From Demequina sp. NBRC 110055 (GTDB taxonomy: Bacteria > Actinomycetota > Actinomycetes > Actinomycetales > Demequinaceae): DNA of 64,000 nt. Position numbers and translations under genes: made by a program. The stretch spans positions 62,001-126,000 of the forward strand of contig NZ_BBRL01000011.1 in assembly GCF_002090135.1 (NCBI RefSeq). Reading direction: 5' to 3'. Numbering within the stretch: the first letter of the stretch is position 1; each line of letters starts with the position of its first letter. The notes beneath the pieces are model-generated. The model searched no databases. It was not told the origin of the DNA and worked only from the letters and a program-made list of their open reading frames with translations. Below, piece after piece: positions 1-13,864 of this stretch.

Positions 1-525
1 ACGCCCCCCACCGGGTGTGGCTGACCGACATCACCGTGTCTCTGGACCGGCGACGGCAAGCTCTACCTGTGTGCCATCAAGGACGTGTTCTCGAACCGCA
101 TCGTGGGCTACGCGATCGACAGCCGGATGAAGTCCTCGCTGGCGGCCGCCGCCCTTGAGCAAGCCGTTGCCCGACGGACACTCGTGGGTGCTGATCTGAG
201 CGATCTGACGTGCCATTCGGACAGAGGAAGCCAGTTCCGCTCCAGGCGCTTCGTCGGGGCCCTGAACGCCCATGGCATCCGCGGCTCGATGGGCCGCGTC
301 GGTGCTGCTGGCGACAATGCCGCGATGGAGTCGTTCTTCTCGCTGCTGCAAAAGAACATTCTCAACCGCAAGCGGTGGGAGTCCCGCGAGGAGCCCCGTC
401 TGGCGATCATCACGTGGATCGAGAAGACTTACGATCGACGCCGCCGGCAAGCACGCCTGGGCCGGATGACGCCCATAGAGTTTGAGACCGTTTACGCTAC
501 CCAACAGGTCGCTCTCGTGGCCTGA
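1..525 (+). pseudogene. IS3-family transposase, C-terminal part, frameshifted
   Basis: Catalytic core (integrase-type DDE fold) of an IS3-family OrfB, cut by the window edge. The first catalytic Asp is in WLTDIT (bases 18-35, read in frame 3). The rest, from TGDGKLYLC (about base 46) to the stop, is in frame 1, so one extra base within 36-42 breaks the gene. The second Asp is in CHSDRGSQF and the Glu in AAMESFFSLL, both intact. The ATG at 85 is internal to the domain and not a real start. The right end of the element probably lies within about 30 bases after the stop, but I could not define the inverted repeat without the left end. Dead as read, unless the shift is a sequencing error. Confidence 0.85.
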
Positions 526-612
526 CCACCCCGGTCAACCGATCTTGGGGCAGACCCGGCCGCTACGCAACGCACCCGCGAATCGTCCCGAGAAGCCATA
601 CCTCTAAACAAA

Positions 613-1083
613 CTACAGAGCATCGAGCACGTAGATGTCGCTGGCCGTGCGCTGGAGAAACCACTCGTGGTCTGACATGCGCGGCCGAAAGCTGCTGAGC
701 GGCTGGGAGGGGTCGGCGGTTGTCGCGCTCCAGTAGTACTGGTGTCGCGAGCCGCGGCGGATGAGGGTGTGGGAGTAGTCACCGTCGCGGCCTTGCCCTA
801 AGCCGTCGACGTCCGTCTCCGGCGGGTATGAGATGACACCCCGAAGAGGGAGCCACTGGTTGTCGTAGGGCGAGTGATGGGTGGGGCCAACGCCGCGTGC
901 GCGCATCATGCGTGGGCCTTCTCCGCGTGAGTCGATGTAGTACTTCGTGCTGGATTCGGTGACGACGACGATGAGAAGTTTGTCGACACTGAGGTCGACC
1001 GAGGGGACGGACTCACCCAGGAGCGGGTGGTCATCACCGATGCCGCTGGTTGCGCCAGGGTTTGACTCACGGGGTGCGCTCAC
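613..1083 (-). CDS. Hypothetical protein (156 aa)
   Basis: Open frame starting at a GTG (1083). I do not recognise the family. It is polar, with no membrane segment or signal peptide, rich in Tyr/Trp/His in its second half (motifs HQYYWSATT and DHEWFLQR), and has a short beta-like stretch LLIVVVTESSTKYYID near residues 36-51. The composition looks like a real protein rather than an antisense shadow, but there is no family evidence. It lies in the accessory block between the IS3 remnant and a HAD-like gene on the same strand. The start is uncertain; no clear ribosome binding site was seen. Confidence 0.45.
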   Translation of the reverse strand: MSAPRESNPGATSGIGDDHPLLGESVPSVDLSVDKLLIVVVTESSTKYYIDSRGEGPRMMRARGVGPTHHSPYDNQWLPLRGVISYPPETDVDGLGQGRDGDYSHTLIRRGSRHQYYWSATTADPSQPLSSFRPRMSDHEWFLQRTASDIYVLDAL

Positions 1084-1288
1084 GACAGTGCGCTCTTCGA
1101 TGGGTTACCAAGGTCGGCGATGCCGTAGCGGAGGCGCCCTCGGATCGCAGACTTCGGCCCGGGCACGGCGCCAGCCGGCGCGAGTTGGCCGCGGACCGCG
1201 TATGCATCAGTCCGTTCGTTGGCGAGGACACTCGGCGGTCGCCGATTCTCGATCCACGACCCGGGACGGGGGGCGGCGCATCTCATCA

Positions 1289-1846
1289 TCACGCGCCCTC
1301 CAAGAACTGCTCGATGTGTTGAATGTGGTCGCTCGTGATGCCACGGCGACGATCGGGGCACACTGCGAGTACAGATTCGTGCAGCCACCCCAGTTCGTGG
1401 TCGCGCTGCTGCAAAGCAACTTCGCGCCGCCATGTGTCGATGTCGTCGTCGATCCACACCGCACGCACGCCACGAGCCGCGACGGCGCGGTTGACGTTCT
1501 GGGCTTTCCACCAGGAAAAGCTGGTCGGGGTGTTCTTCACCACCCATGGAGCGACCGGCCAGTCGTGCCCGAGACCGACAATGGGAGCCAGGAGGTCGAC
1601 CGCATGGTCGCCCCACGTCGTGCACCAGCGCATCTGCACGCCGGGCATGGCCCCCATGACACGCAGAGCGTCGACGGCGGCGAGATTCCAGGTGAGAGTC
1701 CCTGCGCCCATCGGCGCTCCGAAGTCCACGTAGCGGCTTCGCCACGTGTCGGCGGGCCAGTGCTCCAGGTCGTCAGGCCCGTCGGGCTGCGCGTTGATCA
1801 CGCCGTCGATATCGACGAACACCTCTGCGCCGGCGCTACGCGTCAT
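1289..1846 (-). CDS. HAD-like hydrolase (Swiss-army-knife RNA-repair-type HAD domain)
   Basis: About 185 aa from the ATG at 1846, chosen because it falls just before the HAD motif I, VFVDIDGVIN. The frame stays open for 33 more codons upstream, but that extension is Cys/Arg-rich and unlike the domain. The Asp-x-Asp of motif I, a following WCTTWGDHAVDLL segment (motif II region) and VRAVWIDDDID (acidic motif IV) fit the small HAD phosphatases often found alone or in RNA-repair and phage-related contexts. The substrate cannot be read from sequence. It sits in the accessory block; phosphatase activity is inferred from the motifs only. Confidence 0.7.
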   Translation of the reverse strand: MTRSAGAEVFVDIDGVINAQPDGPDDLEHWPADTWRSRYVDFGAPMGAGTLTWNLAAVDALRVMGAMPGVQMRWCTTWGDHAVDLLAPIVGLGHDWPVAPWVVKNTPTSFSWWKAQNVNRAVAARGVRAVWIDDDIDTWRREVALQQRDHELGWLHESVLAVCPDRRRGITSDHIQHIEQFLEGA

Positions 1847-2372
1847 CGTGATTGCCGAAAACGTCGAGGCGTAGCAAGCATTCGAGCTGGGGTTCCGCGC
1901 GACGCGCACGCCAGGGCCGCAGCCAGCTTCCGCGTAGCACCGCATCTTGCGCCGTCGCGACTGCGACAGGAATCACATCAAGAATCACAATTCACCCCAT
2001 TGACTAGACACCGTGAACCACGCCTTCACGACCACAGCAATCCTGCCACTGGATGCCATGATCTGCCAGAGTAGCCTGGTAGACCACCACATCTCATGAC
2101 GAATGAAGGCATGGAATTCGCCCTGCTAACTCCCTTTAATGTTCACGGAAAATATTCTTCCTGGTCCGCGAGGCTGCCACCGACAGACGAACATTAGTCG
2201 CGCAGTTCGGAGCGTCACGGGGAACACTGGGGCGCGAGGGAATAGCGCTGCACACACGTCGGCCACCGATCACGCGCACGCGCATCCGGTGCCATGCGAG
2301 CGGTCGGCGCACATGCGCAAGCGCCGCCTCGCGACCTGCGCCGCATCTCATCTGCTGACGTAATCTGGCCAG
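1847..2372. other. Non-coding stretch in accessory block
   Basis: No gene that I can support. The part around 1960-2160 is clearly AT-richer than its surroundings and probably carries promoters for the flanking divergent genes. A TAATCT hexamer (2361-2366) lies 6 bases before the ATG at 2373 and could be a -10 element for a leaderless message, but no matching -35 is evident. Short open frames here look random. Confidence 0.5.
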
Positions 2373-2951
2373 ATGCCATTCGAATTGCGCATCCCCGAGG
2401 AGCTGGTCGCTCCCGCGGAACGCAAGACATTCGAGAGCGCCCTCATCGACGCTCTGCGCCGCCACCCACGCCATTCGATCGCTTCGCACTCGGCTGTCAC
2501 GACGCTCCTCGACATCTCAGGGCTCGACGATGAGAATGCGTCACGCGCTCGGAGCGCCATCGAGAACTACAGCCCAGACTTCACACCCGCCATTGACGCG
2601 GCGATACACGTCACGGACACCACAGCGGGTGCACTGACGACCACACAAGTCGCGGCGCACCTCCAGGTTGCACCGAGCACAGTGCGCCGCCGAGTGGATC
2701 GCGGCGAACTCCTCGCACACCGCGGGACGCGCGTGTTCCGTCTGCCGCATTGGCAGTTCACCCCCACGGGCACATTGCCCCAGTGGCGGCTGATAGCAAC
2801 GCACCTCCAGCACGTCGACCTCAGAGCAACAGAGGCGTTTGTGCACGAGCCCCGAGAGGACCTCGAAGGAATGAGCGTCCGGGCCTGGCTGCTCGACGGT
2901 CGAGACCCCGAGAAGGTCGAGCGCTTGGCGCAAAGCCTGTCACGCTGGTAA
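2373..2951 (+). CDS. HTH DNA-binding protein with antitoxin-like C-terminal region
   Basis: 192 aa. Residues about 85-125 (ALTTTQVAAHLQVAPSTVRRR onward, then HRGTRVFRLPHWQF) form an excisionase/MerR-type helix-turn-helix, the kind that reads DNA in recombination directionality factors and some antitoxins. The C-terminus (EDLEGMSVRAWLLDGRDPEK) resembles the toxin-binding tail of MbcA/ParS/Xre antitoxins (DUF2384). No RES-domain or other toxin gene is next to it: the next gene is on the opposite strand and unrelated by eye. It may be an orphan antitoxin, an element-encoded regulator or a directionality factor. The HTH call is firm; the antitoxin link is inference. Confidence 0.65.
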   Translation: MPFELRIPEELVAPAERKTFESALIDALRRHPRHSIASHSAVTTLLDISGLDDENASRARSAIENYSPDFTPAIDAAIHVTDTTAGALTTTQVAAHLQVAPSTVRRRVDRGELLAHRGTRVFRLPHWQFTPTGTLPQWRLIATHLQHVDLRATEAFVHEPREDLEGMSVRAWLLDGRDPEKVERLAQSLSRW

Positions 2952-3045
2952 GGCGCGTGCAGGCGGCGCACTCAAAGGTGGACTCGGAGAACCAGCACGC
3001 CAACAACCCGCCCGCTCGACGTGCGGTACGCGCGCGGGGAGAGCC

Positions 3046-3642
3046 CTACCAGTGGACGACCGGGGCGCCTTGGACCGAAAGATCCGTCAGCCTGGCGTGG
3101 GGACTAAACGGCATCGAGGCACCCACCCCGGCGCGCGCCGACTCGGGCAGCTCGGTGGGCGCCTTCGACGTCTGACGGCGGGGCGCTTGACGTCTCATCG
3201 CCTCATGCGCTGCGAGAAGGTCGATGCGCTGGGCATTCTTCAGGGCCGTCTCGCCCTTAAACACCTTCTTGAGCTGATCTGGCGTGCCCATCACCGTAAA
3301 CCACCACAGCAAGACGTCCGTCTTGACGCGCACGTCCTGCTCGAGATCGAGGAATCGGCGGGCGCGCTTGTGGTCATTTTTCTCAGAGGTCACCTCGGCT
3401 TCGCGCTCGCTCAGTTCGTAGTGGAACTCGATCGCCACCCGTCGAAGCTCACTAACGATGAGGTGCTGCTCCTGTGCGGCGAGGACGTTGACCTGCTCCT
3501 CGGCGGACGTGGGTTCGACCCAGCCGTGCTCGTCGAAGCTCGCCAACGGCGAGCCAAACTCGTCTCGCTTCGCTTCGTCGATGATCCAGTCACGAGGTTC
3601 TCGGGTTTTTCCTGCCACGAGGCCACAGATTAGCCGCTCCAT
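3046..3642 (-). CDS. Hypothetical protein (198 aa)
   Basis: I do not recognise this. It is a charged, mostly helical protein: residues about 45-110 (SAEEQVNVLAAQEQHL through HKRARRFLDLEQ) look like long helices or a coiled coil, followed by a Trp-containing segment DVLLWWFTVMGTPDQL and a basic stretch. The last 40 residues are low complexity. A plus-strand frame of 193 aa covers the same bases; I prefer the minus frame for its balanced charge and helix pattern. It is in the accessory block and likely mobile-element cargo. No function is proposed. Confidence 0.5.
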   Translation of the reverse strand: MERLICGLVAGKTREPRDWIIDEAKRDEFGSPLASFDEHGWVEPTSAEEQVNVLAAQEQHLIVSELRRVAIEFHYELSEREAEVTSEKNDHKRARRFLDLEQDVRVKTDVLLWWFTVMGTPDQLKKVFKGETALKNAQRIDLLAAHEAMRRQAPRRQTSKAPTELPESARAGVGASMPFSPHARLTDLSVQGAPVVHW

Positions 3643-4114
3643 CTCGCACTAGGGATCACCCTCTACGCGCATAGTGCGGCGTGACCGCCCACGCGAGGGA
3701 CTCTCTCACGAGCAACGTGCCACCCACACCGATCACACGCCCACGCCGACCACCGGATCGCAGCCGGACCAAAGTCCCTGGTAGATGGACTGCGCGAGAT
3801 TTTCTCGGGATCGCGGAGACCGTGGTCTTCAATGGCGCCCTATGCGAAACATGGACGACAAGCCAGCGATGCCAGGCGTATCTGCGGCAAGAGTTAGCAG
3901 CTCATCCGCCCGGCGAGGCGACAGTGCCGAGCGCCGTCGTACACGTGCCGGAAACGCGGATCGCAGCAGCTCGATCCGACTGGTGTCGAGTACCCCCGTC
4001 GTCGACGAGAGCGGCGAGAGTGCCAAAAGTGGGGTAGCCCCTGAACGCGACATCGCGACTACCCAAGCGCACGATTTTGAGTTCCAACGATCTCTTGATC
4101 CTCAAGGAGACGCC
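3643..4114 (+). other. Stretch without a supported gene before the recombinase-like gene
   Basis: A plus-strand frame from GTG 3681 to a stop at 4037 (118 aa) has a plausible middle part but no family resemblance, and its ends are low complexity, so I do not call it a gene. The frame of the following recombinase-like gene is also open through 3785-4114, but the strong ribosome binding site at 4104-4109 argues that this part is untranslated leader. It may contain the left end of the two-gene transposon-like unit. Confidence 0.35.
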
Positions 4115-5053
4115 GTGACTCAATACATCACAAGCTATGGCTCCACAATGCCTGAAGAGCATTGGGCTGCGATCGAGCCATTCGTCAAGGACGTCATCCG
4201 CGCAAGCATGCCCGCCGACGTCAACGCAGCGCGCAACGATTTCGCCGCCGTCACGAGCCTCACGCGCTGGGCGTGGCTGCGCGGCATGGAACTCGATGCG
4301 CAGGTCCTACTCCGACGAGACGTGATCGAACAATGGGCGAGTTCACCCGAAGTCGACCTCAAGCAGGCAACGCGGACCACCTACCGCGGGAGGCTGTTCC
4401 GCATCGAGCAATGCCTCCTCGAAGGCCCCCGTCGCGCAGTACCCATGAGGACCTTCAAGCGAGACGACAACGCCTCGCGCCCCTACTCGGACGCAGAGGT
4501 CGCGGCGTTCCGAGTATGGGCACGAAGCCAGCCTTCTCAGCACCGGCGTGAACAAGCGACCATCCTGCTCTCGCTGGGCTTCGGTGCCGGCCTTACGACG
4601 TCCGAGATCATCGCCCTCACGCATCACGACATCAAGGTTGACGATTACGGTGTCCTGCTCAACGTGGAGGGCAGGCGCGCACGCCAGGTGCAGGTCTCCG
4701 CAGGATGGGAGCAGCGCCTACGGGACACAGCTGCGACCGCCAGCCTGCGCAACGACTTCGTGTTTTGCCCCGGTCGGCGCACCCGCGCCAACCCTCGCAT
4801 GGTCGCAGCCTTCGTCGAGGACTGCACAAAGGACGTCGCGCTGCTCAACACGCAGCGCATGAGAGCCACATGGCTTGCCGCGCACCTGACTGCCGGCGTG
4901 CCACCCAAAGTGGTCATCGCCGCGGCAGGAATCAGCACCATCGGGGGCCTGGAGCGCATCTCCAAGTTCGTTGCGCAACCCGACGAGCTGACAGTGCGCC
5001 TGTGGATGCGCAATGCCCAAACCTCACCCACCACACCTCCCCAGGCGCACTGA
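4115..5053 (+). CDS. Tyrosine-recombinase-fold protein lacking catalytic residues
   Basis: About 312 aa from GTG 4115, chosen because AAGGAG lies 5 bases upstream. The N-terminal part (EHWAAIEPFVKDVIRASM onward) resembles the SAM-like core-binding domain of phage integrases; the C-terminal half follows the catalytic-domain layout. In the box I position GAGLTTSEIIALTHHDI, the catalytic Arg is Thr. In box II, LNTQRMRATWLAAHL, the His is Gln while the following Arg is kept. The LGH-type motif is AAGIST, and no Tyr is present in the terminal segment. It therefore cannot act as a normal recombinase. Its stop is directly followed by, or overlaps, the transposase gene, suggesting a helper or targeting role. 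Fold assignment is by motif alignment by eye. Confidence 0.7.
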   Translation: MTQYITSYGSTMPEEHWAAIEPFVKDVIRASMPADVNAARNDFAAVTSLTRWAWLRGMELDAQVLLRRDVIEQWASSPEVDLKQATRTTYRGRLFRIEQCLLEGPRRAVPMRTFKRDDNASRPYSDAEVAAFRVWARSQPSQHRREQATILLSLGFGAGLTTSEIIALTHHDIKVDDYGVLLNVEGRRARQVQVSAGWEQRLRDTAATASLRNDFVFCPGRRTRANPRMVAAFVEDCTKDVALLNTQRMRATWLAAHLTAGVPPKVVIAAAGISTIGGLERISKFVAQPDELTVRLWMRNAQTSPTTPPQAH

Positions 5054-5112
5054 TCAAACGCCCCCTCCGCCCCGAGTCGCCCGCTGCACCCACACAGACG
5101 GGCAATTCAGCC

Positions 5113-7002
5113 GTGCTCGAACGCGTGTGGCAAGCGCTAGCGTCCAATCAGAGCCCGCCTGGCACGGGCGCAACGCACGTCACCCTTCCCGACGTCGCCC
5201 CGATCTGGATCCGACTCGCGGCCGACTACGTGGACGTGACCGGCGTCGACACAATGATCGAGCAATGGTTCGAGGACGACCGTGTCAGTCAGGAAAAGCG
5301 CAAGGCCGGCCGACACGGCAAAGTCAGCGTGCGCGAATACTTGGTCGCATCTATCGCGTGCGCCATTAACAGGATTCCCGCTTCGCTCGATCAGATCGTG
5401 CACGTCATCAACCAGCACAAGTCAAAGAAGGTCCGCGCCCGCTTCGAGCCCAATGACCCGATTCGGCTCGAGCAGATCCGCCGAGCGAGGCAGATCACGA
5501 GCAAGCGCATCGACGACTCATCGGTCCAGCGCCTGGCTGCCAAGATCAACGAAGCGATCAGCCCCAAGATCTACCCCGCTGACCGCCACTACTCCCACGC
5601 AGAGCTGGAAGAGTACGACCGGCAGCGTAGCCAATGGGATCGAGACATGATCCCCGTACGCCAGAAGCGCATGGATGACGTGACAAGTGCCATGCTCCTG
5701 CCATCATGGCTCCTTGTTCCCGAGGAGCACCGCCGAGAGTGGCGAGGCGACGTCACCTCGGACGCCACCGTGGTCCCGATCTGGGGCCGTGGACACAAGC
5801 GCTGCAAGTGCAAGAAGAATGGCGAGTGCGGCCACTGGACCTCAGAGGCAATCGACGCGAATGCAGGATGGCACGCCAAGCAGGAAGACAACCGGCCCTA
5901 CGCCGAGCGAGACGGCAATGACGCCGACACCGAGTACACCCACGGCTACGACTACCACTACAACCTGACGACCGGCCCCGGGGTAGGCACGCTGTTCCCC
6001 GCCATCATCTTGTCAGGCAGAGTCGACCGACCCGCGCACGCCCCCGGAAAGAACCTCGCAGACTCGCTCGCCTGCATCAAGCTCGCAGGACTTCCCCTTG
6101 GCCACGTCACCACCGACCTCGGCTACAGCCAGCAGTCCCCAGAGTCCTACGCAGGCCTGGTCAAAGGCATGGGCTACGACCTCGTCATGATGTACAAGGG
6201 CAACCAGCTCGGAGTCCAGCACACGTACAAGGGCTGCAAACTCGTCGAAGGTACCTGGTACGGCCCGTGCCTCCCCCAGAAACTTGTCGACGCTAACAGC
6301 GACTACGACAACGGCAAGATCGACTACCAAACCTGGCGCACACGCATCAAGGCACGCGAGGCATACGCGCTACGCCCTAAGAGCGACACACAAAATGAAA
6401 CCTCGTACGTTTTCCGATGCCCTGGCCACGGAGACGGCGCAACGGCCACGTGCGACTACCGCAAAGTCACACGCAACGACGCCGCGCTCGTTGAAGCCGG
6501 CAGGAAGACGCTCGCTGTCGTCGTTAACCACCCAGACAAGGATCTGCCCTCCTGCAGCAACAAGGCGTCGATCTCGATCCCGAAGAGCGAGGGCGCACGC
6601 TGGCTCCAGAAACTTTCCTACAAGAGCGACAAGTGGATCGCGGTGTACGGCCCCGAGCGCAACCAGATCGAGGGCAAGAACGGCGAAGCAAAGAACAGTC
6701 TCTTGGGCAGCCTCGCCCAAGCCGGCGACCGACGCCATGTCGGCATGGGCAAGCAGGTCATCGCCATCCTCGCGCGCACCATCGCCACCAACGTCCACTC
6801 GCTGCTGCGATTCCTCAAGAAGGCAGACGCGCCCGTCAGCGACCCAGGCTTCACTCCCCTGTCCCCCTTCGGGCACGCATGGCGACGCTCCGACGATAAG
6901 GACCACACGCCACACCGTGTGACTGGACGAACGGTGGCAGAACCGATCAACGAGCCACCTCCACCGCCGTCGATCGTGCCCGACATCCCCGAAGTCGCCT
7001 AG
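5113..7002 (+). CDS. Large DDE-type transposase with Cys/His insert
   Basis: About 629 aa from GTG 5113; a GTG at 5002 (overlapping the previous gene by 52 bases) is equally possible. The candidate catalytic triad is Asp in VTSDATVVPIW (base 5761), Asp in VTTDLGYSQQ (6115) and Glu in RNQIEGKNGEAKN (6670). Just after the first Asp is a likely zinc site, KRCKCKKNGECGHW. N-terminal residues about 50-130 hold helix-rich, probably DNA-binding sequence. The C-terminal 50 residues are Pro-rich. The general layout is that of IS4/IS1182-like transposases, but I cannot place it in a named IS family. It forms a unit with the degenerate recombinase upstream. Confidence 0.7.
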   Translation: MLERVWQALASNQSPPGTGATHVTLPDVAPIWIRLAADYVDVTGVDTMIEQWFEDDRVSQEKRKAGRHGKVSVREYLVASIACAINRIPASLDQIVHVINQHKSKKVRARFEPNDPIRLEQIRRARQITSKRIDDSSVQRLAAKINEAISPKIYPADRHYSHAELEEYDRQRSQWDRDMIPVRQKRMDDVTSAMLLPSWLLVPEEHRREWRGDVTSDATVVPIWGRGHKRCKCKKNGECGHWTSEAIDANAGWHAKQEDNRPYAERDGNDADTEYTHGYDYHYNLTTGPGVGTLFPAIILSGRVDRPAHAPGKNLADSLACIKLAGLPLGHVTTDLGYSQQSPESYAGLVKGMGYDLVMMYKGNQLGVQHTYKGCKLVEGTWYGPCLPQKLVDANSDYDNGKIDYQTWRTRIKAREAYALRPKSDTQNETSYVFRCPGHGDGATATCDYRKVTRNDAALVEAGRKTLAVVVNHPDKDLPSCSNKASISIPKSEGARWLQKLSYKSDKWIAVYGPERNQIEGKNGEAKNSLLGSLAQAGDRRHVGMGKQVIAILARTIATNVHSLLRFLKKADAPVSDPGFTPLSPFGHAWRRSDDKDHTPHRVTGRTVAEPINEPPPPPSIVPDIPEVA

Positions 7003-7009
7003 CCCCGCA

Positions 7010-7026
7010 GCCGACCCCGAGTCGGC
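7010..7026 (+). terminator. Short hairpin after the transposase gene
   Basis: Six-base arms GCCGAC / GTCGGC with a 5-base loop, 8 bases after the stop at 7002. There is no T-run behind it, as is common in high-GC genomes. It probably ends the two-gene transposon transcript. Confidence 0.45.
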
Positions 7027-7228
7027 CGCGAAGCATGCCCTACACACCAAAAACGAGGGCATCCAGCGCGGTTCAGGACCCCCACCGCTTCCGCTCACGC
7101 TGCCGGCACCCCGTGTAGGCGCAAAGAACACGCCCACGCGCCTGGCCCGACGCCCAAAAACCGCGATCTGCGGCTTCTCGCGCAATACCGAGTGCATGAA
7201 CCCGCCAAAAGCGAGTGCACCCCAAAGG

Positions 7229-7302
7229 TGGGCCAGGTGGGGCTTGAACCCACGACCGACGGATTATGAGTCCGCTGCTCTAACCGGCTGAGCTACTGGC
7301 CC
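7229..7302 (-). tRNA. tRNA with anticodon CAU (tRNA-Ile2 or elongator tRNA-Met)
   Basis: Full cloverleaf on the minus strand: acceptor GGGCCAG pairs with CTGGCCC, discriminator A at 7229, D-arm AGCTCAGCCGGTTAGAGC, anticodon loop CTCATAA, T-arm GTGGG-TTCAAGC-CCCAC. The CCA end is not encoded (CCT follows). The paired first base rules out the initiator. CAU can be read as elongator Met or, with lysidine, as Ile2; the acceptor stem leans to Ile2 but I cannot decide. Its 3' end faces the accessory block. Confidence 0.93.
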
Positions 7303-7419
7303 GTGGCCGCCCCACCGCGCCACGCGGGACCCGAGGACGAGCGACCGCCGATCAGTCTAGTCAGCACCTTCCGGCGTCATCACCACCCCGGATTGTCCTG
7401 TAGTATTTCTGACTGCTGA

Positions 7420-7492
7420 TCCTCCATAGCTCAATTGGCAGAGCAGCCGACTGTTAATCGGCAGGTTGTTGGTTCGAGTCCAACTGGAGGAG
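7420..7492 (+). tRNA. tRNA-Asn (GTT)
   Basis: Cloverleaf with acceptor TCCTCCA / TGGAGGA, discriminator G, D-arm AGCTCAATTGGCAGAGC, anticodon loop CTGTTAA (GTT) and T-loop TTCGAGT. No encoded CCA. It is divergent from the tRNA(CAU) gene, with about 120 bases between them that should hold both promoters. Confidence 0.97.
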
Positions 7493-7501
7493 CGCACAGA
7501 G

Positions 7502-7530
7502 AGCCGGTCCCACGGGGCCGGCTTTCGTAT
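7502..7530 (+). terminator. Terminator after tRNA-Asn
   Basis: Stem AGCCGG / CCGGCT with a 10-base loop, followed by TTCGTATTTT, beginning 10 bases after the tRNA-Asn gene. The T-rich tail makes it a standard intrinsic terminator. Confidence 0.75.
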
Positions 7531-7561
7531 TTTCCGGGCTCGACCAGGGCCGATGCCCCAC

Positions 7562-8008
7562 TCAACCCTCGGGAAGATCATCCGGTATCCGCGTGGCGCC
7601 ATCCTCCGCCGTCACCCAGAACGGGTTCACCGCGAGCTCCCACACGTGGCCGTCGGGATCCGCGATGTAGCCGCTGTACCCGCCCCATCCCACCGCTACC
7701 GGCTTCTTCAGGTCGGTCGCACCCGCGGCAAGCGCCGCCTGGTAGCGCTCGTCGACCTCGGCCTCCGATACGTAATTCTGCGCCAGGGCGGAGCCTCCTA
7801 CGCCCAAGCCGGCCACGGCATCGGCCCTCCCCTGGTCCTCGGCGAAGGCAGACAACGGAAAGAGCGCCAACACGAGCGTGCCGAGTTGATAGAACACGAT
7901 CTCCTCGGTGGCTTGGCGAGCGGTCCAGCCCCACGCCTCGTAGAAGGCGCGCGAGCGCTCGAGGTCGGCGACGCCGAGGGTCACCATGGACACACGTTGC
8001 ACGGTCAT
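7562..8008 (-). CDS. VOC-family (glyoxalase/dioxygenase fold) protein
   Basis: 148 aa, one vicinal-oxygen-chelate module made of two beta-alpha-beta-beta-beta units: VSMVTLGVADLERSRAFYEAWGW at the start and GYSGYIADPDGHVWELAVNP near residue 115-135. The DPDGHVWEL segment carries the Glu usual for metal binding; these folds also include metal-free resistance proteins. Substrate unknown. It lies downstream of the first phosphonate-type importer on the same strand with a 59-base gap, so co-transcription is possible but not required. Confidence 0.85.
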   Translation of the reverse strand: MTVQRVSMVTLGVADLERSRAFYEAWGWTARQATEEIVFYQLGTLVLALFPLSAFAEDQGRADAVAGLGVGGSALAQNYVSEAEVDERYQAALAAGATDLKKPVAVGWGGYSGYIADPDGHVWELAVNPFWVTAEDGATRIPDDLPEG

Positions 8009-8958: not shown

Positions 8959-9763
8959 ACGAACCTCCGGCGCAGGTACTGGCTCAGCTGGTCGATCAGC
9001 AGCACCACCACGAACAGCGCGACCACGATCGCGGACACGTTCTCGTATGCAAAGCGCGAGAACTGCACGTTGATGACCTGGCCGATACCGCCACCGCCCG
9101 CAATACCAATCACGACGGACGAGCGGATGTTGAGCTCAAAGACATAAAGAAAATAGGACAGGTAGTTGGGCAGGATCTGCGGCAACACCGCCCACCGGGC
9201 ACGCGACCAGGTGCCGGAGCCCGCGGCGTCGACCGCCTCGAGCGGGCCGCGGTCGATCGCGTCGATGGTCTCGCTGGTGAGCTTGGCCGCGATGCCGATG
9301 TTGAACAGGATCAGCGCCAGGATTCCGGCGAGCGAGCCGACTCCCACGAGCGCGACGAAGATCAGCACGTACGCGATGTCGGGCAGCGAACGCAGCACCG
9401 ACAGGAACCAGCGGGTGGCGCGGTACAGCCAGCCGGAGCGGTTCGTGACGCGCGAGGCCATGAACGAGAACAGCAGGCCCAGCCCGGCGCCGATGAACGT
9501 GGCGACGATCGCGATCGCGATGGTCTCGACCCATGCGTCCCACACGCGCCAGATGAAGGGCCAGTTCGGGCTGAGGAACTGTTCGATGACCACCCAGCCG
9601 TTGGACCAGTTCTCGATGAGGGGGCGCAGCGAGAAGCCCATCGAGTGCCCGGCCCACCACGTGAAGACCGCGGCCAGCACGAGGCCCACGATCACGGGGA
9701 TCGAGGGGGCCGGCTTCTTGGGCCGCGGCGTGACGGGGGCCGATGCCGTGGTGACTTGGGAGG

Positions 9764-9767
<4 letters not shown>
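8955..9767 (-). CDS. phnE: Phosphonate-type ABC transporter permease (first permease of cassette 1)
   Basis: 270 aa. Membrane segments begin at IPVIVGLVLAAVFTWW. The EAA-like loop is LEAVDAAGSGTWSRARW, and the conserved SSVVIGIAGGGGIGQVI segment lies near the C-terminus. It overlaps the ATPase gene upstream and the second permease downstream by 4 bases each. It should pair with the other PhnE to form the channel for the substrate delivered by the PhnD lipoprotein encoded at the head of the operon. Confidence 0.92.
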
Positions 9768-10534
<767 letters not shown>

Positions 10535-10591
10535 GAAGTCACTATCTCGTTGGAATGCCGACGCGGTGGCCGCGCCCCGCCGAGCGGGACG

Positions 10592-10610
10592 CGACCACCG
10601 CGTGTGGTCG
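10592..10610 (-). other. Stem-loop between phnD and phnC
   Basis: Seven-base arms CGACCAC / GTGGTCG with a 5-base loop, placed 7 bases past the phnD stop codon in the direction of transcription. Such structures after binding-protein genes commonly protect the upstream message and lower downstream expression, giving excess binding protein. That role is inferred from position only. Confidence 0.55.
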
Positions 10611-10616
10611 GGCTGT

Positions 10617-11678
10617 TTAGCTCTCGCCGAAGTTGGCGGCGACCTGACGGGCCTCGTCGAGCGCGGCCACGTCGGCGGGCTCGAGGCCCTCGATGTTGTA
10701 GACCGCGTCGAGGGCGGCGAGGCCCTCCTCGGTCTCGGCCAGCGCCATCAGGGCGTCGGTGATCTGGGTCTGAGCGTCCTCGGACAGGTCGGAGGAGAGC
10801 ACCACGCCGTCGTTGGGGATGTTCGACGAGTACGCGAACACGACGACCTTCTCGCCGACGTCCGGGAGTTCCTCGGCCAGCTCGGAGCGGGCGTCGTTGA
10901 ACGACGTGCCCACGACGGCGTCACCGTCGTAGACCGACTGCACGGCCTGCGGGTGGCCGCCGGCGAAGAACGATGCCGGCAGGTCGGTCAGCGGGTCGAT
11001 GCCCAGGATGTTCTGGAGCTGCGTGGCCGGGTAGTAGTAGCCCGAGGCCGACGACTCGTCCACGAAGGCGATGTCGGCACCCGGGTCGAGCAGCGCGAGA
11101 GCGTCCTCACCCTGGGGGCCGTCGTAGCCGGTCGCACCGTTGCAGTACGAGTAGTTGACGCCCTCGTCGTCGGCCTCCGTGGTGACCTCGTCCAAGCAGA
11201 ACGTGTCGGGGTCGTTGGTCATCCACTGGGTGACGTAGCTCGACGAGCCGTAGCGCACCGACTGGAGGACCGGCACGGCGCCGGCCTCGTCGACGGCCTG
11301 GACCATGGCGATGGGGCCGAGGAAGCCAATGTCGGCCTGGTCGGTCTGCAGCGCGACGACCACGGCGGCGTACGAGTCGGGGATGAAGGTCGTGACCTCG
11401 ACACCCAGCTCCTCGCCCAGCAGCGCAGCGAGCGTGTCGCCGTCGGTGACGAGCTGGTCAACCTCGTCGGAGGGCACCAGGCCCAAGATGAGCTCCTCGG
11501 GCAAGCCCTCGGACTCCATCGCGTCGTCGGTCGCCTCGGCGGTTGCCTCTGTCGTGGCCCCGGTGGTGGCGCCCGTGGTCGCCTCCTCGTCGGTGCCATC
11601 GCTCGAGCAGCCCGCCACGGTCAGCGCGAGCGCGCCCGTGAGCGCGGCCGCCGCCATGGGGTTGAACTTGATCTTCAC
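10617..11678 (-). CDS. phnD: Phosphonate-type substrate-binding lipoprotein
   Basis: About 353 aa from GTG 11678, chosen because it gives a clean lipoprotein signal (KIKF, hydrophobic core, lipobox TVAGC) and has GGAAGG upstream; the frame stays open for 24 more codons without a signal-like start. After the lipidated Cys comes a Thr/Ala/Glu linker, then a PhnD-type periplasmic-binding fold (LILGLVPSDEVDQL, IGFLGPIAMVQA, ASGYYYPATQL). Two Cys (DTFCLDEV and YSYCNGATG) probably form a disulfide and are shared with the second PhnD of the window. It captures the substrate outside the membrane and heads the operon. Confidence 0.92.
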   Translation of the reverse strand: MKIKFNPMAAAALTGALALTVAGCSSDGTDEEATTGATTGATTEATAEATDDAMESEGLPEELILGLVPSDEVDQLVTDGDTLAALLGEELGVEVTTFIPDSYAAVVVALQTDQADIGFLGPIAMVQAVDEAGAVPVLQSVRYGSSSYVTQWMTNDPDTFCLDEVTTEADDEGVNYSYCNGATGYDGPQGEDALALLDPGADIAFVDESSASGYYYPATQLQNILGIDPLTDLPASFFAGGHPQAVQSVYDGDAVVGTSFNDARSELAEELPDVGEKVVVFAYSSNIPNDGVVLSSDLSEDAQTQITDALMALAETEEGLAALDAVYNIEGLEPADVAALDEARQVAANFGES

Positions 11679-11926
11679 AGTCTCGTCTACCTTCCGGTCG
11701 GTATAGCCAGCCGCCCCCTGCCGGCGGCGCTGGTCGCGTCGCCGCATCAACGCGGCTTCCTAGGACCGTACCCGCCCGCGCGGGCGCGTGGCGCGGGAAC
11801 GAGGAGATTTATCGTGCCTGTAACAGGGATTTCACTCAGACGTTCCCTGGACGAGACGTTCTTGTGACCTTTGAACGCTGGACAATCCGTTCACGGCGTG
11901 CCTCCGGCTTAGACCCCTACCTCGGG

Positions 11927-13864
11927 TCAGGACTCGCGCAGCTCGCGCCGGCGCGTCTCGAGTCGGATCATCTCCGCGAAGGCCTCCTGCGCCTCGGGAG
12001 TCCCCGTGCCCGCGCGCTGCATGCGCCCGCGCAGCGCCGCAACCTGGCGAGTGAGGCTCAGGTCGAGCACCCGCGCCAACACCGTCCCCGCGTAGTGCCC
12101 CAAGGTCTCCGGCTTGTCGTGTGGCAGGGGCGACACGGCGAGCTCGGAGATGGTCGCCACGAGGGTCTCACCGGCCTGTTCGGCGACATCGTTAGCCCAG
12201 TCGGGGCCCGCGTTGCCCGGACCGCCCGCGGCGAGGATCGCCTCGTAGACCGCGCGGTACTGCGGCACCGTGTAGGACTCAGGGGTCAGTTCCTTCACGA
12301 TGGCGGCGGCAACCGGGTCGTGCGAGATCTCTGTGGGCGCCTGCAGGAGCGTCCCCAAGGAAAGCGCCTCGGCGCGCACCACGGGATCGCGCCGGTCGGG
12401 GCGCGCAGGCCCGGCCGCGGATCTGACCCCGTCCCCACCGGCGCCGCCCACGGGCCCTCCCCACGCATCGGCCGCCTGACCCGAGCCCCCTCGAGAGTCG
12501 CGGCCGCCCGCGCGGCCACGTGACGCATCGGACACCTGTCGGCGCACCACGTCCATCTCCATGCCCAGCCAGCCGGCGAGCAGCCTGGTGTATTCGGGCT
12601 GGATGGCGCGGTCGCGGATGCCCGCGACGACCGGCGCGGCGGCGCGCAGGGCCCCGGCGCGGCCCTCGGGAGTATCGAGGTCGAACTGAGCCAAGGAGGC
12701 GCGGATCACGAACTCGAACAGCGGCTGGCGGTGCTCCAGGAGCGCCTGCACGGCCGCGTCTCCCCCGCCCATGCGCAGGTCGCACGGGTCCTTGCCCTCG
12801 GGGTCCACGGCGACGAAGGTCTGCGCGAGGAACTGCTGGTCCAGCTGGAAAGACTTGAGAGCGGCGTTCTGGCCGGCCTCATCGCCGTCGAAGGTGAAGA
12901 TGACCTTGGCGCCGGTGGAGCCGATCTTCAGTTGGGAGCCGCCGGTGTCGCCCATGAGGCGGCGCACCACCTTGACGTGCTCCTCACCGAAGGCCGTGCC
13001 GCAGGTCGCGACGGCGTTCGTGATGCCCGCGAGGTGGCAGGCCATCACATCCGTGTAGCCCTCGACCACGACGGTGGTGCGCTCGGAGCGGATGGCGCCC
13101 TTGGCGAGGTCGATGCCGTACAGGACCTGGTTCTTCTTGTACAGCGGCGTTTCGGGGGTGTTGAGGTACTTCGGGCCTTGGTCGTCCTCGTGCAGGCGGC
13201 GCGCGCCGAAGCCGATCACCTCGCCCGTCACGTCGCGGATGGGCCACAACAGCCGTCCGCGGAAGCGGTCGTAGATGCCGCGCGCACCCTCGGACACCAG
13301 GCCCGAGGCGCGCAGTTCCTCCTGCGTGAAGCCTTTGGACTGCAGGTGGTCGGTGAGGTGGTTCCAGCCCTGCGGCGCGTAGCCCACGCCAAAGTGGTCG
13401 GCCGCGGCGCGGTCGAAACCGCGGTCGCGCAGGAAGTCGCGCCCGATGCGCGCCTCGGGGGTGTTCAGTTGCTCGCGGAAGTACTCCTGCGCGACCCGGT
13501 GAGCCTCGAGTAACCTCTTGCGCTGGCCGGCGGTGCCCTCGCGGCGCGGCCCGCCTCCGGCCTCGTAGCGCAAGGTCACGCCGGCGCGTTCGGCCAGGTA
13601 TTCGACCGCCTCCGCGAACGGCAGCCCGTCCATGCGCATCACGAACTCGATGACGTCGCCGCCCTCGCCGCAGCCAAAGCAGTGCCAGCGCCCGGCGCCC
13701 GGGCGGACGTGGAACGACGGGGTGCGCTCGTCGTGGAAGGGGCACAGGCCCTTGACGGAGCCCACGCCGGCGGGCTTCAAGGCGACGTGCTGGCCGATGA
13801 TGTCCTCGATGGGCGCGCGCTCGCGCACCTGCGCGATGTCGTCCCTATTGATCGTCCCAGCCAC
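11927..13864 (-). CDS. dnaG: DNA primase
   Basis: 645 aa. It makes RNA primers for chromosomal replication. The CHC2 zinc finger spans residues 41-65 (CPFH, then HCFGC), the helical linker and TOPRIM domain follow (VVVEGYTDVMACHLAGI; FTFDGDEAGQNAALKS; acidic DPEGKDPCDL), and the C-terminal region after about residue 450 is a Gly/Ala/Arg-rich linker plus a DnaB-helicase-binding domain. Length is usual for actinobacteria. It is close to dgt, as in relatives, though separated from it here by four plus-strand genes. Start ATG gives the family N-terminus. Confidence 0.97.
   Translation of the reverse strand: MAGTINRDDIAQVRERAPIEDIIGQHVALKPAGVGSVKGLCPFHDERTPSFHVRPGAGRWHCFGCGEGGDVIEFVMRMDGLPFAEAVEYLAERAGVTLRYEAGGGPRREGTAGQRKRLLEAHRVAQEYFREQLNTPEARIGRDFLRDRGFDRAAADHFGVGYAPQGWNHLTDHLQSKGFTQEELRASGLVSEGARGIYDRFRGRLLWPIRDVTGEVIGFGARRLHEDDQGPKYLNTPETPLYKKNQVLYGIDLAKGAIRSERTTVVVEGYTDVMACHLAGITNAVATCGTAFGEEHVKVVRRLMGDTGGSQLKIGSTGAKVIFTFDGDEAGQNAALKSFQLDQQFLAQTFVAVDPEGKDPCDLRMGGGDAAVQALLEHRQPLFEFVIRASLAQFDLDTPEGRAGALRAAAPVVAGIRDRAIQPEYTRLLAGWLGMEMDVVRRQVSDASRGRAGGRDSRGGSGQAADAWGGPVGGAGGDGVRSAAGPARPDRRDPVVRAEALSLGTLLQAPTEISHDPVAAAIVKELTPESYTVPQYRAVYEAILAAGGPGNAGPDWANDVAEQAGETLVATISELAVSPLPHDKPETLGHYAGTVLARVLDLSLTRQVAALRGRMQRAGTGTPEAQEAFAEMIRLETRRRELRES

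Follow-up and report, generated by a model that had tools for sequence, protein, structure and literature searches.

The window, i.e. the whole stretch of 64,000 nucleotides of Demequina sp. DNA analysed here, carries two genes on the forward strand, rec (4115-5053) and tnp (5053-7002), which run into one another without a gap. The first encodes a protein of tyrosine-recombinase fold without the catalytic residues, which we propose as a target selector, and the second a DDE transposase of Tn5-like fold with its acidic residues encoded at 5761 (D), 6115 (D) and 6670 (E). The start codon of tnp is not fixed: it may be GTG 5002 or GTG 5113, as the reading frame stays open through the end of rec. 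The distance from the tnp stop codon to the 3′ end of an intact tRNA-Met (CAT) gene on the opposite strand (7227-7302) is 225 bp. Open reading frames, coordinates and the tight spacing of the two genes agree with a preliminary description of this locus, which had considered the pair a two-gene transposon-like unit.

The rec and tnp proteins

The rec protein matches PF00589 (Phage_integrase) with an E-value of 1.7e-5, slightly under the Pfam cut-off. Its AlphaFold2 model (pLDDT 85) resembles XerA with Z 17.3 and Cre and Tn1549 Int with Z about 15, and Foldseek placed it within the recombinase fold at E 6e-7, so the tyrosine-recombinase layout proposed in the preliminary description was borne out by structure prediction. 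The alignment of the window protein with XerA puts T161 in place of the box I Arg, Q247 in place of the box II His, I273 in place of the box III His and I282 at the position of the Tyr nucleophile, exactly the Thr and Gln replacements and missing terminal Tyr that had been read from the sequence; only the box II Arg is retained (R250). The full catalytic set R-H-R-H/W-Y occurs in none of 62 rec sequences. The box I Arg is kept in two of them and the box II His in two, never alongside the remaining catalytic residues, and a Tyr occupies the nucleophile position in 36. The loss of the active site is thus directly seen: as a member of the active tyrosine recombinases, rec qualifies by its fold and fails by its catalytic residues.

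A dead recombinase fold could just as well belong to a repressor. The regulators SroF, MrpR and YopR, all of recombinase fold, match the rec model at Z 11-13, and rec lies directly upstream of tnp, as might be expected of a transcriptional repressor of tnp of the MrpR/YopR/SroF kind with no part in targeting. Many of the elements described below, however, have a separate HTH gene, and repression leaves their tRNA specificity unexplained; we consider this role improbable.

The model of tnp is of moderate confidence (mean pLDDT only 60, core 70-90). It has a helical N-terminal region and an RNase H-like order of elements, beta-beta-beta-alpha-beta-...-alpha(E), and its best structural match is Tn5 transposase (1mm8), with Z 15.3 over 302 residues, better than that to TnsB. 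The triad D237, D355 and E540, suspected beforehand at precisely the codons given above, is observed without exception in the 19 sequences aligned. Neither Pfam nor NCBIfam gave a relevant match for tnp alone or in the 19 members, and no PDB sequence matched tnp. The protein therefore meets the RNase H-like core and D-D-E signature of a DDE transposase and shows no sequence relationship to a curated transposase family. The preliminary description had also singled out a Cys/His insert: an insert is indeed present in the window protein as a lineage-specific feature, but its KRCKCKKNGECGHW cluster is absent from relatives, and we rejected it as a defining zinc site. The cysteines conserved in relatives are C456, C467 and C501/C502.

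Single-sequence searches with the window protein in genome contigs and phage recovered no relatives, and profile searches were needed; rec-tnp pairs were then found across Actinomycetota. A phage origin is unsupported, since viral contigs and phage records gave no relative. The pair is kept together, rec and tnp co-occurring in nearly all full-length cases, and their trees are broadly alike. Two rec genes are present in several Leu-type Demequina elements. There is one clear exception to the pairing, locus L176, where a full-length tnp stands at tRNA-Leu and rec is undetectable within 12 kb; tnp might thus locate its site alone, or rec may be used in trans. The usual place of rec in L176 is taken by a divergent gene of 872 aa (9453-12071, minus strand), HTH-like at its start and with an ATPase-like motif, GRNGAGKTS.

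Extent, ends and cargo of the elements

The rec-tnp pair is merely the right end of an element of 28,270 bp (window -21046 to 7223, G000:C11:40954-69223), and 4115-7002 is therefore not itself the mobile unit. What holds of the earlier proposal is a mobile rec-tnp transposon; what does not is a two-gene insertion sequence, as the elements of this family are in fact cargo-carrying and range from about 5 to 36 kb. The boundaries come from an empty site in a sister species and from a search for terminal inverted repeats (TIR) and target site duplications (TSD). Only 1-7223 of the element falls within the window; its left end, at G000:C11:40954, is located 21 kb upstream, which is why a repeat search limited to 2000-8000 gave no convincing ends. 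In the sister species (G026) 53 bp separate the tRNA-Met gene from a flank whose distance in the window genome is 28.4 kb. The right end (7177-7223, minus strand, terminating at C11:69223) has a terminal repeat CGAGTGCACCCC (7212-7223), with another iteron lying 23 bp inwards of it, and reads GGGGTGCACTCG...ATGCACTCGG towards the interior. It is followed by a 6 bp target duplication, AAAGGT (7224-7229; ACCTTT on the tRNA strand), with a second copy at the left end. A search of 124 kb with one mismatch allowed found just two occurrences of the terminal motif CACTCGGTATT, one at each element end and inverted relative to one another. The left-end match alone is modest (8 of 300 shuffles were as good), and the break in the empty site also supports it.

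The element has a GC content of 62.7%, compared with 69% in its flanks. Its scanned cargo, which left out one gene crossing the locus boundary, comprises a HamA/HamB (Hachiman) pair, IS3-type fragments and a metallophosphatase; neither a TnsC-type ATPase nor TniQ/TnsD was found in it. The HamA-/HamB-like anti-phage pair is situated near the left end (G000:C11:43127-46400, window -18873 to -15600; HamB E 5e-68, HamA only weak, E 2e-5), and rec-tnp elements may thus spread phage defence. An HTH/excisionase-like protein (2373-2951, plus strand; HTH_17 E 1.3e-5, 'excise' E 5.7e-4) recurs in the elements of G025 and G029 (tRNA-Leu) according to all-versus-all phmmer. A small protein of about 156 aa (613-1083, minus strand) without Pfam match belongs to a family with several paralogues in the cargo of the window and G025 elements.

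Common ends and target duplications, by which copies in other genomes were to be compared, were both found. Across the family, the ends are short inverted repeats beginning with GG, and a duplication of 6-8 bp starts at, or adjacent to, the tRNA discriminator base. The G015 element (5,402 bp) has perfect 11 bp repeats and an ACCAAC duplication, and is arranged in tandem with a second element of 1,384 bp that has the same ACCAAC in common. Elements of 35,570 bp (Glu, ACGACT) and 24,309 bp (Leu, ACGTGAA) were delimited in G029, one of 15,516 bp (duplication ACCACAGA) in G025 and one of 5,232 bp (ACAACA) in L129. The combination of repeats and duplication beat shuffled sequences in all five (0/300 for G015, both G029 elements and L129; 1/300 for G025). 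The G005 end is not significant alone, since 272 of 300 shuffles did as well; what supports it is its resemblance to the window left end. The left ends of L102, L105, L109 and L128 were missed by the automatic search; they rest on a shared left-end sequence and are not counted as strong. Those of G006, G002 and G009 were not resolved. Right ends of the Met and Lys types carry two repeats 22-23 bp apart. Remnant right ends without rec or tnp stand beside tRNA-Met in several genomes, which suggests repeated past insertions there.

Beyond rec and tnp, the smallest intact element with clear boundaries has small cargo only, and the genes scanned in it yielded no other recombinase or ATPase. No further recombinase was found among the scanned genes of the 5.4 kb G015 element, which combines the pair with small cargo, and no TnsC-type ATPase or TniQ/TnsD among those of the G015, L128 and L129 elements. 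A conserved coiled-coil-like gene of 134-195 aa is present upstream of rec in the L129, L102, L128 and L109 elements.

Insertion at tRNA and tmRNA genes

About 58 loci have the tnp end turned towards a tRNA or tmRNA gene at its 3′ end, usually 190-260 bp from the stop codon. Twelve loci in Demequina are at tRNA-Met, Lys, Leu and Glu, at distances of mostly 216-251 bp, and 16 further loci in order-level relatives are at Ser, Met, Leu, Gly, Lys, Pro and, once, tmRNA. tRNA-Ala(CGC) is the target in all 21 loci of Streptomycetaceae and Streptosporangiaceae (Streptomyces, Streptosporangium, Nonomuraea and related genera). In a held-out phylum-wide sample, for which the pattern had been stated beforehand, the target was tRNA-Leu, Met, Ser or tmRNA in nine of ten new loci. 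Insertion at tRNA 3′ ends is thus observed to be fixed in position and orientation, and the element is tRNA-gene-specific. The tRNA is absent at L173, L101 and L103, some loci stop at contig breaks, L155 appears to abut the end of another element, and a tRNA-Ser call in L127 was not counted because it overlaps tnp. Rfam searches of loci without tRNA returned tmRNA only; the tmRNA genes at L157 (925-1293) and L170 (776-1175) are insertion targets in a tRNA-like manner.

Tyrosine integrases usually have their attachment sites at the 3′ ends of tRNA genes, and the short direct repeats could be attachment cores, so that these loci might be ordinary integrase islands moved in trans by an active integrase, with rec and tnp as passengers. 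We consider this very improbable: rec and tnp stand at the tRNA-proximal end, at a near-constant distance; different protein clades have different terminal repeats; the 6-8 bp repeats are not alike from one element to another beyond the tRNA; and no active recombinase was found among the scanned genes of a complete element of 5.4 kb. Duplication, terminal repeats and D-D-E enzyme fit transposition by tnp, whose catalytic role is our inference.

Four copies on Streptomyces plasmids occupy non-tRNA sites, each with a T-arm-like AATCC 16-17 bp before the tip of the element, as in tRNA-Ala. A matrix trained on the tRNA-Ala targets ranked the plasmid sites 58th to 432nd of about 34,000 positions. 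In the tnp tree these copies branch from within the tRNA-Ala elements at more than one point, a pattern that suggests recent jumps made independently. The target of the L027 plasmid copy resembles the 3′ part of tRNA-Ala; this copy (about 9480-9560) stands beside type I-E-like CRISPR repeats, apparently in a spacer. Target identity is clustered on both the rec and tnp trees, none of 200 label shuffles being as low, and is partly confounded with host taxonomy.

Target selection and comparison with known systems

The reading we consider probable is a site- and orientation-specific family of DDE transposons of Actinomycetota, in which tnp is the transposase and the dead recombinase rec picks the tRNA site. 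The tnp protein would bind the iterated end repeats, and its D-D-E triad would perform cutting and strand transfer, giving an insertion staggered by 6-8 bp. As a tyrosine recombinase without the chemistry, rec may have been retained as a DNA-binding clamp that would recognise the T-arm/acceptor region of the tRNA or tmRNA gene and bring tnp to a fixed point 6-8 bp past base 72. Insertion at this fixed point would spare the tRNA and always turn the transposase end towards it. Among the points against this explanation, besides the rec-less L176, is the range of 6-8 bp in the duplications, which is unusual for a single DDE enzyme.

Phage integrases of the recombinase fold read tRNA genes at the same place, the 3′ end. 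We assign target reading to rec because of these integrases and of the dead-recombinase precedent of Tn6022. It is an inference that the target is read by rec rather than tnp, and likewise that rec and tnp are in contact; for a selector of the TnsF kind, binding the target and recruiting tnp, the evidence is indirect only, i.e. the pairing, the T-arm-like secondary sites and the co-clustering of targets. The preliminary description had supposed that a dead recombinase could bind ends or target DNA for the transposase; neither is proven, and the strict targeting of tRNA 3′ ends favours the target role.

Alternatively, tnp alone might both catalyse and find the tRNA site, rec being an end-binding architectural protein or an excision helper. 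The L176 tnp at tRNA-Leu without rec and the helical N-terminal region of the Tn5-like model, which could read DNA, speak for this, as do the eukaryotic Dada elements, which target tRNA genes with 6-7 bp duplications and for which the portion of the source available to us mentions no such partner (PMC8869645). Nevertheless, the near-universal pairing, the duplication of rec in several Leu-targeting elements and a fold shared with the integrases that read tRNA-gene sites make targeting by tnp alone unlikely, without ruling it out.

In the Tn7-like Tn6022, an inactivated recombinase, TnsF, serves a DDE transposon as target selector; this element requires TnsA/B/C and TniQ and targets comM, and TnsF combines zinc fingers at its N-terminus with a partial catalytic domain (PMC10293859). 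The rec-tnp family shares with it a DDE transposon and an inactivated protein of tyrosine-recombinase fold, whose selector role is inferred for rec, but it has a single Tn5-like transposase, its targets are tRNA/tmRNA genes, and the genes scanned in minimal elements yielded none resembling TniQ or TnsC. The Tn7-like hallmarks of a 5 bp duplication and 5′-TGT ends are not met (6-8 bp and ends starting with GG). Tn7-like and CAST elements at tRNA genes (TnsD/TniQ) are similar in their oriented DDE insertion adjoining a tRNA gene, and differ in that no AAA+ or TniQ was found in our minimal elements and that tnp is closer in structure to Tn5 than to TnsB. Tn5/IS4-type elements provide the best structural match of tnp, a similar order of elements and the D-D-E triad, but not a sequence match, site-specific insertion, cargo or a partner protein. 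Islands and actinomycete ICEs that integrate at tRNA genes share the tRNA 3′ end, short direct repeats and tandem accretion; they have an active tyrosine integrase, whereas in rec the active site is lost. We know of no recombinase partner of Dada. These DDE transposons target specifically the genes of tRNAs and other small RNAs and make duplications of 6-7 bp, but are eukaryotic and insert within the RNA gene (PMC8869645, PMC3706591). IS1202/ISAjo2 are strictly oriented DDE elements beside sites bound by tyrosine recombinases (dif), perhaps via host XerC; they differ by a TnsB-like transposase, 5 bp duplications, the dif target and, at most, a host protein as partner (PMC10132070).

A literature search found no description of the rec-tnp family, and a listing in ISfinder is not excluded. 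The tRNA-targeting DDE transposons and their dead-recombinase partner are best seen as a new family acting on a principle already known from TnsF/Tn6022, with machinery, target and family different from those of Tn6022. A broader claim, on which we are evenly divided, is that of a new superfamily whose Tn5-like DDE transposase is directed by a dead tyrosine recombinase itself, with no AAA+ adaptor in between, to place kilobases of cargo beside tRNA/tmRNA genes, the conversion of the recombinase to a selector being independent of TnsF. The rec protein would be the second recombinase turned address-finder, and the route by which transposons acquire target specificity could thus be tested; the rec-tnp pair would also offer, with two proteins, a compact natural means of inserting DNA precisely and in a set orientation at tRNA 3′ ends, which are conserved safe sites. 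The family accounts for a class of islands beside tRNA genes that have yielded no working integrase, and gives meaning to two protein families listed as hypothetical. In Streptomyces plasmids both rec and tnp are annotated as such, and a small HTH gene lies upstream of rec on the opposite strand.
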